From the NCBI GenBank assembly GCA_022402445.1, contig JAKRSF010000004.1:319876-383875 (forward strand): a stretch of DNA of 64,000 bases, given 5' to 3'. Below the pieces are notes generated by a model that worked only from the letters and a program-made list of their open reading frames with translations, was not told where the DNA came from and made no database searches. Source of the DNA: Cyanobacteriota bacterium. Lineage in GTDB: Bacteria > Cyanobacteriota > Cyanobacteriia > CACIAM-69d. The translations under genes and the position numbers were made by a program. Below, piece by piece: positions 1-41,327 of this stretch (positions are counted from its first letter, which is position 1; every line of letters begins with the position of its first letter).

Positions 1-2238
1 GTCGTAGTTGCCATCGTCCGCCGTATCCACCTCCCCTTCGGACCAGGTGAGGGTGCCCCCCAGCCGCCAAACGTCGCTGGGCTGCCAGTCGATCGCCGCC
101 TCGATGCCGTAGATCCGCTCCGGTGCCCGCAGCACTTCGCCGGGGGCCGTGAAGCTGGTGCCGTTTTCGGACTGGTTATAAAACCCCACCAGCGACGCTT
201 GCAGGGTGGACCAGTTGCCCCGGATGCCCGCCTCGAAGTGGTTTACCGTCTGGGCTTCGGGCTTGAGGTCTTCTACGGAAAAGCCCGCCGGGGCATTGCG
301 CAGGGCCAGCCCCACATCCGCGAGGGAAAAGCCCTGGGCAAAGCTGGCGAAGAGGTTCACGCGATCGCTCAGGTCCAAGACGGCTCCGGCATTGAACAGC
401 AGGGCGTCGTAGTTGAGGTCACCCCCCGCGATCGCGTTGCCCGCCAGGGTGGTGAAATCGTCCACATCGACGCTGACGTTTTCGTAGCGCAGGCCGCCGA
501 TGAGTCGGAAGCGATCGCTCACGGCCCAATTCGCTTGGGTGAACAGACCGAGGCCACTCTGGCGCACCGGGGGCGACCACACGCGATCGTCAATGCGGCG
601 GAAGGTGAGGCCACCGCTGCGATCGAAGGCGTCGCCGTCCATGATGCCCACCAGTTGCGCCGTCTTTTCGTTGCTGTAGTCCGCCCCCCACAGGATCCGC
701 AGGCGATCGGCGTCATCCAGGGGTGTATTGAATTGCAGCCGCCCGCCAAAGCGCTCCGATTCCACCCGGGATTGGTTGATGGAGTTCCCTAAGCTGGCGA
801 AGTCCCGCCCATCGAAGGGGAAAAACCGCGTCAGATAGTCCCGGTAGTAGACATTGGCTTTCATGTCGCCGCCGAAGACGCGATCGTTGGTGTACTCCAA
901 ATTAATGAAGGTGTTGCGGCTGCGCTGGGGATCTTCTAGCTCTAGGCCCCGCAGGGCTTCGGCCCGCTGGCGTCCCGCGCGATCGCCCACCGCCGGATCC
1001 GTGGTGTAGTCCGTTTCCTGGGTGCTGTCGAAGTGGTTGAAGACAATTTGCAGCCGCTGGCCCGGATCAATTTCCGCCCCGATCTTGGCGAATAAATTTA
1101 AGGTGTCCGCATCCGCAAGACCCCCCTGGCCGTTGGGATCCGGGGGAATGATGTTGCCGCGCCCGTCAAAAAAGTCGCTGGTCCAGCCGAAGGAGGCCGA
1201 CAGGCTGTAGTCAAGATTGTCCGAGCGGCCCGAGAAGGTTTGGGTGAAGCTGCCGCCGAAGCTGTCGCCAAGATCCGTCGGGGCGAACTCGATGCCCGCG
1301 CGGGTGGTGGCCTCAAAGCCGTCCTCGCTGGGGGTGCGGGTGATGATATTGACGACGCCGCCCGTGGCCCCGTCGCCGTAGAGGGCCGTGGGGCCGCGCA
1401 GGACTTCGATGCGTTCGATCGCGCTGGGGTCGATGGTTTGCAGATCCCGCAGGACGTTGCGGCTGGTGGATTGGGGCACGCCGTCGATGAGGACCGAGAG
1501 ATTGCGGCCCCGCAGGGATTGGCCAAAGATGCTGGCGCTGCCGGTGCTGGGGGCGAGGCCGGGGACCAGGCGGCTGAGGATGGAGCCGAGGTCGCGGTTG
1601 AGGCGGGTTTGGGCGTCGATGGCCTCGCGATCGATGACGGTGACCGATCGCGGCACGTCGTCAATTTCCTCTTCGGTGCGGGTGGCGGTGACGACGATTT
1701 GGATGGCGTTCGGGGCTGCCGGGGCCGGTTCGGTCGCTGCGGGATCAACCGCTTCGGGATCCGCCGATTCAGGATCCATCGCGTCGGCGGTGGCGGGGTC
1801 CGTGGCGATCGCGTCGGCGGCGGGGGTGAGGGTGAGGGCGAGGCCGCGATCGCTCGGGATCACCTGTACGGCGGGCACGGTATCGGCACTGCCGCCGCGA
1901 ATGGTGGCGCGGATGCGGTTGAGGCCGTCCGGTTCAATGGTGACGGTTTCGATGCCCGCCGCTGGTTGCTCGAAGGTGAGGCGATCGCGGCGATCGGCCA
2001 GTTGCAGTTGGCTGTTGAGGATATAGATGACGCGATCGGCCCCGACGGTTTCCGGCGCGAGGGTTTCCAGGGGGCCATCCGCCACGAGGCGCAGTTCAAG
2101 GCGATCGCCCTCCGTTGCCACCAATTCCACTTCGGTGATGGTGCGGACGGCGCTGGTTTGGGCGCGCACTTCGGCGGCGGGCACCTGGGCGATCGCGCCC
2201 ATCAAACCGGTGAGGGCGGCTACATGGATCCAACGCAT
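1..2238 (-). CDS. TonB-dependent siderophore receptor, 3' end cut by window edge
   Basis: Outer-membrane TonB-dependent receptor for ferric siderophore uptake; 746 codons are visible and the frame runs off the left edge. The start ATG follows an AGGAGA ribosome site. After a short hydrophobic leader ending near PAAEVRAQ, residues about 35-125 look like an AMIN domain, as is common in cyanobacterial receptors. An acidic linker follows, then the plug: IVVTATRTEEEIDDVPRSVT near residue 180, a VPGLAPSTGSASIFGQSLRGR segment, and IERIEVLRGPTALYGDGA with GGVVNIITRTP. The visible remainder is beta-barrel repeats with many aromatic strand ends. tonB lies 81 bp upstream on the same strand, so the two are probably co-transcribed. 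The family is secure; the exact siderophore cannot be read from sequence. Confidence 0.93.
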   Translation of the reverse strand, partial: MRWIHVAALTGLMGAIAQVPAAEVRAQTSAVRTITEVELVATEGDRLELRLVADGPLETLAPETVGADRVIYILNSQLQLADRRDRLTFEQPAAGIETVTIEPDGLNRIRATIRGGSADTVPAVQVIPSDRGLALTLTPAADAIATDPATADAMDPESADPEAVDPAATEPAPAAPNAIQIVVTATRTEEEIDDVPRSVTVIDREAIDAQTRLNRDLGSILSRLVPGLAPSTGSASIFGQSLRGRNLSVLIDGVPQSTSRNVLRDLQTIDPSAIERIEVLRGPTALYGDGATGGVVNIITRTPSEDGFEATTRAGIEFAPTDLGDSFGGSFTQTFSGRSDNLDYSLSASFGWTSDFFDGRGNIIPPDPNGQGGLADADTLNLFAKIGAEIDPGQRLQIVFNHFDSTQETDYTTDPAVGDRAGRQRAEALRGLELEDPQRSRNTFINLEYTNDRVFGGDMKANVYYRDYLTRFFPFDGRDFASLGNSINQSRVESERFGGRLQFNTPLDDADRLRILWGADYSNEKTAQLVGIMDGDAFDRSGGLTFRRIDDRVWSPPVRQSGLGLFTQANWAVSDRFRLIGGLRYENVSVDVDDFTTLAGNAIAGGDLNYDALLFNAGAVLDLSDRVNLFASFAQGFSLADVGLALRNAPAGFSVEDLKPEAQTVNHFEAGIRGNWSTLQASLVGFYNQSENGTSFTAPGEVLRAPERIYGIEAAIDWQPSDVWRLGGTLTWSEGEVDTADDGNYD

Positions 2239-31114: not shown

Positions 31115-31125
31115 GTTTGTAAATT

Positions 31126-31154
31126 AATGTAACAAAGAATTGACGCAGAGGCAA
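31126..31154 (-). promoter_or_regulatory. Candidate promoter for the small minus-strand unit
   Basis: On the minus strand TTGCCT (31154-31149) and TACATT (31131-31126) are spaced by 17 bases. Each hexamer matches consensus at four of six positions. Transcription would begin near 31119 and run to the terminator at 30981. Confidence 0.4.
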
Positions 31155-39620: not shown

Positions 39621-39947
39621 ACGCCCCGCGCCACCGCCCCATCCATTCCCCGCCCCATCCCCAGCACCGCCCCCAGATCACTCCCCAAACCACCCCTTTC
39701 GATTGCCATGAATCCCCTTGATGGGCTCCCCAGAAATCCCGAACTCCAGACTTTTTTAAAGTTTTTGTGAAGTTGCCCCCAGAGGGTTTTCCCATTCTCC
39801 TAGACCTCGCTTCATGATCCGCAAACTTGCCTTTTGCGAGGGCGGCCCATGCCTGAAATCCTTGCTACAAAAGCATTTTTCAAGGTTTGCAGCCAACATA
39901 AAATCATTTTTGTATTTAAAGATTCAGTGAAGAGCAGGGTGAAATTC

Positions 39948-39976
39948 TTGTGATCTTCAAGGGAAGTTGATAGAAC
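39948..39976 (+). promoter_or_regulatory. Candidate promoter for the PEP-CTERM gene
   Basis: TTGTGA (39948-39953) and TAGAAC (39971-39976) are spaced by 17 bp in an AT-rich stretch. The predicted start near 39983 falls just before the first leader hairpin, which supports the pairing. Confidence 0.45.
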
Positions 39977-39986
39977 TAGAGGCGTA

Positions 39987-40140
39987 GGGGATACGGGTAC
40001 TGAGCCTGCCCACTGAAACTGTCAGCAATCAGTCCTCAGTGCCTCCCCCCGTAACCTTCGGAGCCGCATCGGGGAGCTGCGAATCCGAGTTTTAAACCGG
40101 GCTTACGTCGTCAATTAGGGAATTTAGGGAGGAAACTCAG
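39987..40140 (+). ncRNA. Structured 5' leader of the PEP-CTERM gene, possible cis-regulatory RNA
   Basis: Two well-paired domains precede the gene. In the first, GGGGA (39987-39991) pairs with TCCCC (40044-40048), GGTACTGAG (39996-40004) with CTCAGTGCC (40035-40043), and ACTGA (40012-40016) with TCAGT (40029-40033). In the second, TCGGA (40058-40062) pairs with TCCGA (40084-40088) and CGCA (40065-40068) with TGCG (40078-40081). A linker of 37 bases leads to the GGGAGG ribosome site at 40127-40132. I compared it from memory with c-di-AMP, c-di-GMP, cobalamin and guanidine riboswitches and found no match. Confidence 0.5.
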
Positions 40141-40935
40141 ATGGTTTCGCGTAATCTTTCCAATCTACTCTTCGGTTCTGGGGTTGCGATCGCGATGGGC
40201 ATGACCGCCGCCGCACCGGCCAAAGCCTGGATCCCGCTGATGCCTGACGCTGAGACCGCCGTTGACGTCACCATCACCCCCGCCTGCTCGATCGTGGGAC
40301 CGGGCGTGACTCCCGACAGCATCTACGGCGTCGAGTCGATCACCAGCCAGACCGTGGCAAACCAGCCCACGGAAGGCGCAGACATTTCAAGCTGCCTGGT
40401 GGTTGATAACCCCGCTACCGAAACCACCTTTGGATCCCTGACCCTGGTCACGAAGGATGCGGGCACCAACGATAAGGATGGTGACCTTTGGTATCGCCCC
40501 ATTGCTCGGAACGCAGCCAGCAATGCAGAAGAGAAAGGCCGCTTGGAATATGGGGAATTTACCTTCGTTCTCGATGACGAAATGGTGGCCCAGGGCGGCA
40601 AGCTGAAGTTTACCTTCCTGGACATTGAAGCGTCGAAGGATCCCTACGGTGTGCTGGGGACCCCTCCTACGGGGGTGAAGGTGGGTGATACCTTCCATAA
40701 CGCCTTCTACGAGGGCACCAAAGTGGTTGGGACGAATGATGTGCGCCACTATCTGGTGCTGGATATGGTGAAGGAATTCACGGTCTACTTGGGTCGTGAC
40801 ACCAGCGGCACTGGCGATGGGGTGAACTTCCGTGTTGAGGCCAAGGCGACGCCGGAACCCTCGGCAATGCTGGGTCTGGGTCTGGCGGTGGGGGCCTTGG
40901 CTACAGCCCGCAAGCGTCGCCTTGAGAACGACTAG
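40141..40935 (+). CDS. PEP-CTERM sorting domain protein
   Basis: Exported protein of 264 residues with a C-terminal sorting signal. The N-terminus is a signal peptide (LLFGSGVAIAMGMTAAAPAK, then AW). The middle is a beta-rich domain without a family I know: FTFVLDDEMVAQGGKLKFTF, FTVYLGRDTSGTG. The C-terminus reads ATPEPSAMLGLGLAVGALAT then ARKRRLEND: the PEP motif, one hydrophobic helix and an Arg-rich end. Such proteins are processed by an exosortase, which is not in this window. GGGAGG precedes the ATG and a structured leader lies upstream, so expression may be controlled at the RNA level. Confidence 0.9.
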   Translation: MVSRNLSNLLFGSGVAIAMGMTAAAPAKAWIPLMPDAETAVDVTITPACSIVGPGVTPDSIYGVESITSQTVANQPTEGADISSCLVVDNPATETTFGSLTLVTKDAGTNDKDGDLWYRPIARNAASNAEEKGRLEYGEFTFVLDDEMVAQGGKLKFTFLDIEASKDPYGVLGTPPTGVKVGDTFHNAFYEGTKVVGTNDVRHYLVLDMVKEFTVYLGRDTSGTGDGVNFRVEAKATPEPSAMLGLGLAVGALATARKRRLEND

Positions 40936-41327
40936 ATTGGGCTCGTCCGATCTGGGGGAGGTGGGGTGATGGGCGCTGGGTTCGGTGAGGCTGCCCTGCC
41001 CCCGCCCTTGGATCGAGGGACGGTTCAACTTCGTTGATTTTCGGTGCTGATGGCTGGTTTGAGCCCCCGTCGTTTCCTGGGGGGTCGGCTGCTACAAATT
41101 TACGGTTCGCCATGGGGGGGCTCTGGTTCAGGCTTCCCCAATTTTTTGTGGTGATGGTTGCTGCAAGGATGGGTTGAGGGATTGGCGCGGTGAAATAGGT
41201 TCAACCCGCAGCGTCCTTGAATGGGGCTGTTTGGCTAGTGATTTGGTGAGCTTCTAACCGTAACTTCAACTTTTTCTACTAATTCTTCTACTAAATCGAT
41301 GGCCCTCTGGCTGGGGTGCCGGGGGGG
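40936..41327. other. Convergent intergenic region without a recognised gene
   Basis: About 390 bp separate the PEP-CTERM stop from the AddB-like stop. A possible hairpin of CCCCC and GGGGG lies near 41063-41083 but lacks a T-run. Nothing else stands out. Confidence 0.5.

Follow-up and report, generated by a model that had tools for sequence, protein, structure and literature searches.

PEP-CTERM proteins are surface proteins that are exported and processed by exosortase, and in Nostoc punctiforme the exosortase CrtB is required for motility, biofilm formation and scytonemin production. A regulatory site of PEP-CTERM genes, together with a sigma-54 promoter and the PrsK/PrsR pair, was described by Haft et al. 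2006 in Proteobacteria only, in a study that also examined Anabaena variabilis (PMC1569441). This PrsR/sigma-54 element stands before 99 of 167 proteobacterial PEP-CTERM genes (PMC1569441). For cyanobacteria, the SigJ J-Box is reported to control the exosortase gene crtB and surface genes (PMC6495340, PMC12188702). Five PEP-CTERM genes of Nostoc punctiforme, Npun_F0296, F4801, ER021, R0434 and R3960, are co-expressed and SigJ-dependent without having a J-Box, and the effect of SigJ on them has been called indirect because of this absence (PMC12188702).

Here we describe the region upstream of a PEP-CTERM gene in a 64-kb stretch of cyanobacterial DNA (the whole stretch is called the window). 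An earlier note had read the leader of this gene as a cis-acting RNA. Our analysis indicates that the regulatory feature at the locus is very probably a promoter of a PEP-CTERM/export regulon, composed of a box and a sigma-70-type -10, and not an RNA switch, and the lead of such a switch at this locus is thereby removed as false.

The locus

The features of the region are, in order along the window:

39756-39772, minus strand: PEP-CTERM box, distal copy, 2 mismatches, 160 bp upstream of the proximal copy and in the same orientation
39916-39932, minus strand: PEP-CTERM box, proximal copy, CTTCACTGAATCTTTAA on the minus and TTAAAGATTCAGTGAAG on the plus strand, 0 mismatches to the consensus
39971-39976, plus strand: -10 hexamer, TAGAAC, at an offset of 38 from the proximal box, final T (position 6) missing
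39983 +/- 2, plus strand: predicted transcription start, placed from the -10
39987-40048, plus strand: arm 1 hairpin, from folding, at the predicted mRNA 5' end, without homologue
40056-40089, plus strand: arm 2 hairpin, from folding, z -1.5
about 40126-40133, plus strand: ribosome binding site AGGGAGGA, read from the sequence
40141-40935, plus strand: gene for an exported PEP-CTERM protein of the LEVG family, 264 aa, with an N-terminus resembling a signal peptide

The gene product matches NF038121 (LEVG family) with 128 bits (curated cut-off 100) and TIGR02595 (PEP-CTERM domain) with 20.7 bits (cut-off 16), and the ribosome site and PEP-CTERM gene that the earlier note placed downstream of the hairpins are both present. 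A second LEVG gene is found elsewhere in the same genome. The nearest homologue outside this genome has 37% identity and comes from another family, and a search of genome contigs for close relatives of the gene gave none. The predicted leader (39983-40140) has 158 nt. About 180 bases past the gene there is a terminator-like hairpin with a T-rich tail (41113-41140, plus strand), of a kind that is expected by chance.

A conserved box upstream of PEP-CTERM genes

Just upstream of the leader, and outside the 39948-40140 region to which the earlier note was confined, lies a 17-base box with the consensus CTTYAYnGAATCTTTAA, which is a direct repeat CTTYAY-N5-CTTTAA with an 11-bp period. The proximal copy agrees without mismatch with the consensus learnt from other genomes only. 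Together with the distal copy, which has no -10 at the usual distance, it makes up the only sites scoring at least 14 in the 64 kb, and the proximal copy scores best; each belongs to one of two copies, at 39755 and 39915, of the 18-base sequence TTTAAAGnTTnnGTGAAG.

Similar sites are found upstream of the other PEP-CTERM genes of the same genome. A search of the 4.08 Mb for TTTAAAGATTCCGTGAA with up to 2 mismatches gives five sites only, and PEP-CTERM genes follow four of them. A site with 3 mismatches precedes a secreted-protein gene whose terminal PEP-CTERM domain is borderline (15.3 bits, cut-off 16), and this gene was missed by the domain search at E 0.01. In locus L096 of this genome (C3:8020 region), where the box stands before a gene (646-1356, minus strand) whose secreted product has a borderline PEP-CTERM end, there are further ATGAAG-type half-sites in 11-bp phase: TTAAAG-CTGCC-ATGAAG-TTCCG-ATGAAA-ACTTG-ATGAAG.

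Conservation, specificity and fixed -10 spacing of the box are established by computation. De novo motif discovery by EM, run on 93 non-redundant upstream regions of 18 genomes other than that of the window, converged in all top runs on CTTCAC.GAATCTTTAA, present in about 79% of the regions (LLR 290). When all 99 regions were used the LLR was 326, vs 79-100 in dinucleotide shuffles. A weight matrix built from the sites of the window's own genome placed 43 of these 99 regions at p <= 0.05, where 5 were expected, and 30 at p <= 0.01, where 1 was expected. A box score of at least 12 was reached in 65/99 PEP-CTERM upstream regions vs 2/38 regions lying before neighbouring genes (P 3e-11), counts which are not fully independent because some regions come from related genomes. 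The 38 neighbouring-gene regions are the control set that was retained, a first set having been dropped as biased since part of its loci had been retrieved through a match to the box. At this score the box is lacking in about one third of the PEP-CTERM regions, and some cyanobacterial genomes in the set are without it (0/7 in one of them). Across many cyanobacterial families, most of the sampled genes that encode exported PEP-CTERM proteins have the box in front of them, and this recurrence points to an undescribed common regulator.

The pattern TTAAAGATTCNGTRAAG-N37-39-TANNNT was also used to scan 84,980 bacterial and archaeal species. Cyanobacteria gave 57 matches, with 20 directly before a PEP-CTERM gene, while none of the 26 matches outside cyanobacteria had this position. 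This is apparently a cyanobacteria-wide PEP-CTERM/export regulon, and the box also precedes some polysaccharide and export genes. Box and -10 are found upstream of a HlyD-family secretion adaptor at three loci and upstream of a polysaccharide-type ABC permease at two; one of the latter comes from a bin labelled Gracilibacteria, and this may be a contaminant contig, as its permease gene is the same as the cyanobacterial one. Other box genes encode a sugar transferase and a phosphodiesterase-family protein. In the scan of relatives, box and -10 were followed by a sugar-nucleotide epimerase-type gene in three genomes, each from a different family; the two of these genes that were tested match PF01370/PF16363. 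It is possible that the three genes form a polysaccharide precursor branch of the regulon. Box and -10 further occur upstream of S-methyl-5'-thioadenosine phosphorylase at five loci, in several Microcoleus-type genomes; this enzyme has no obvious tie to export.

Promoter geometry and the predicted regulator

Among the 39 regions in which the box has the same orientation as in the window, TANNNT begins 37-39 bases after the box in 26 (1.8 expected, P 6e-26), and the commonest distance in other genomes is an offset of 38. In the 24 regions with the opposite orientation the spacing is only weakly fixed, with offset 54 in 4/24. The hexamer of the window, TAGAAC, agrees with this pattern in TA and in the offset of 38, and lacks the final T. 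Since the -10 stands at the box distance typical of other cyanobacterial PEP-CTERM promoters, the predicted start at about 39983, which had been proposed from a promoter-like pair, gains comparative support. The box lies 38 bases upstream of the -10 and is therefore centred near -59 from this start, covering about -67 to -51.

Such an arrangement suggests that a protein binds the box and would activate transcription from a class-I position. Because the box is an 11-bp head-to-tail repeat (CTTYAY-N5-CTTTAA), the predicted activator, bound near -59, is probably a winged-helix response regulator of the PhoB/OmpR type. With a regulator of this type, the PEP-CTERM gene would be part of a regulon of matrix proteins that are exported and processed by exosortase. 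An operator with fixed spacing makes the regulator accessible to DNA pull-down or regulator knock-outs, and the box allows the regulon to be listed in any cyanobacterial genome, including those polysaccharide and export genes that carry it.

Structure of the leader

The two hairpins of the earlier note, at 39987-40048 and within 40056-40089, are seen both in the sequence and by folding. The stem of arm 1 consists of GGGGA/TCCCC and GGTACTGAG/CTCAGTGCC, with one G-U pair, and starts about 5 nt past the predicted start. Compared with its own shuffles, arm 1 by itself has a z of -3.35 (0.2%), for boundaries that were picked post hoc, and 39983-40092 has a z of -2.3, for limits set after the fold was known. 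Among stretches of similar GC content in the 64 kb, 0.8% reach the stability of arm 1 and 4.4% that of arm 2; contiguous stems of at least 9 pairs with loops of up to 35 number 341 in the window vs 230-281 in Markov shuffles. Over the entire leader, z values of -0.03 and -0.23 were obtained in two foldings against shuffles, and the stability is therefore no better than that of shuffled sequence.

In 19 other box genes the predicted leaders are no more structured than expected, with a mean z of -0.09 for the first 70 nt and -0.58 for the whole leader, and a common 5' hairpin was sought in them and was absent. Among all 20 box-gene leaders, that of the window has the most negative z for the first 70 nt. 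The 5' hairpin is a feature of this leader alone, in this genome alone. Most likely the leader is an ordinary 5' UTR of 158 nt, in which the hairpin may at most slow RNA decay. A stable stem this near to the predicted 5' end would suit a plain role in mRNA stabilisation, in which 5'-end-dependent decay is blocked and nothing is sensed, but the hairpin is neither conserved nor common to other box-gene leaders, and we regard this explanation as unlikely.

More was claimed by the earlier note, namely that the layout is that of a cis-acting RNA. An RNA responding to a ligand or a protein, and regulating the PEP-CTERM gene, would be in line with the z values of arm 1 and of 39983-40092, with the position of the hairpin right after the predicted start, and with the first rank of this leader among the 20. 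The claim is nevertheless unsupported, because z is near 0 for the entire leader, no Rfam family and no homologue were found, and the 19 other leaders have no shared structure. Rfam gave 0 matches at gathering score in the 64 kb, in agreement with the earlier statement that no known riboswitch class was recognised, and chance-level matches only at relaxed thresholds. Homologous leaders, proposed in the earlier note as a check, did not appear in either search: by DNA search of 59 relatives the sole full-length match was the leader itself, the several short matches being the box, and a covariance model of the leader run on 145 cyanobacterial genomes gave 141 bits for itself and 20 bits (E 0.5) for the next match. 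A cis-acting RNA is thus very unlikely, and the promoter with its box is the reading that we retain.

Known elements at the locus

RpaB recognises HLR1, with the consensus KTTACAWW-N2-KTTACAWW. This pattern matches the window at 31116, 40609 and 54484 and not near the box, which differs from HLR1. The match at 31116-31133 (minus strand) is perfect; 1.5 matches with up to 3 mismatches are expected by chance.

If the box were an HLR1 site, a Pho box of SphR or a J-Box of SigJ, it would not represent a new specificity. There is a likeness to the Pho box, which also has tandem, CTT-starting half-sites (8-mers) with an 11-bp period (PMC1906773). However, the Pho half-site is CTTAACCT, as opposed to CTTYAY and CTTTAA in the box, and other genes are concerned (PMC1906773). 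Position 4 of CTTAACCT is A, a base found there in 0-2% of the box sites, and tandem CTTAACCT with a 3-bp linker has 0 matches in the window at up to 3 mismatches. For the J-Box, GGGaAtacT, there was no match near the gene, or near the box, with up to 1 mismatch. Identity of the box with one of these three sites is accordingly highly improbable. The literature searched, with subscription papers and supplements outside its scope, gave no description of the box element, and the motif string led, among the matches listed, to unrelated papers only.

A degenerate adenosylcobalamin riboswitch (AdoCbl-II) at 39924-40016 was rejected as practically excluded. RF01689, the best relaxed riboswitch match, reaches 15.9 bits there, where 36.5 is the gathering score, and the genome has one better place for this family. 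The E values are 1.2 when the stretch is searched and 2.0 when the whole genome is. RF00174 has no entry for the region, and the 5' half overlaps box and -10 and would therefore sit upstream of the start. Elsewhere the genome has a true cobalamin riboswitch (RF00174, 51 bits, C9:54719-54880, minus strand) and a sub-threshold one (C6:186892-187028).

Comparison with described systems

The promoter at this locus can in some respects be compared to the proteobacterial PrsR/sigma-54 site, as in both cases the long intergenic regions ahead of PEP-CTERM genes, which are mostly single, contain a conserved DNA element for which a response regulator is invoked (PMC1569441). The proteobacterial element differs in being a -24/-12 sigma-54 promoter with an NtrC-type regulator (PMC1569441), whereas the cyanobacterial box has another sequence, is an 11-bp direct repeat, and is followed at 38 bases by a sigma-70-type -10. 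Between 39540 and 40140 no match to the sigma-54 -24/-12 element was found with up to 3 mismatches. With respect to SigJ, the J-Box is an extended -10 (PMC6495340), while the box described here is an upstream activator-like site. It is quite possible, if somewhat short of probable, that one dedicated response regulator acts through the box on a lineage-wide PEP-CTERM/extracellular-matrix regulon, which would make it a functional cyanobacterial counterpart of PrsK/PrsR with a different promoter logic.
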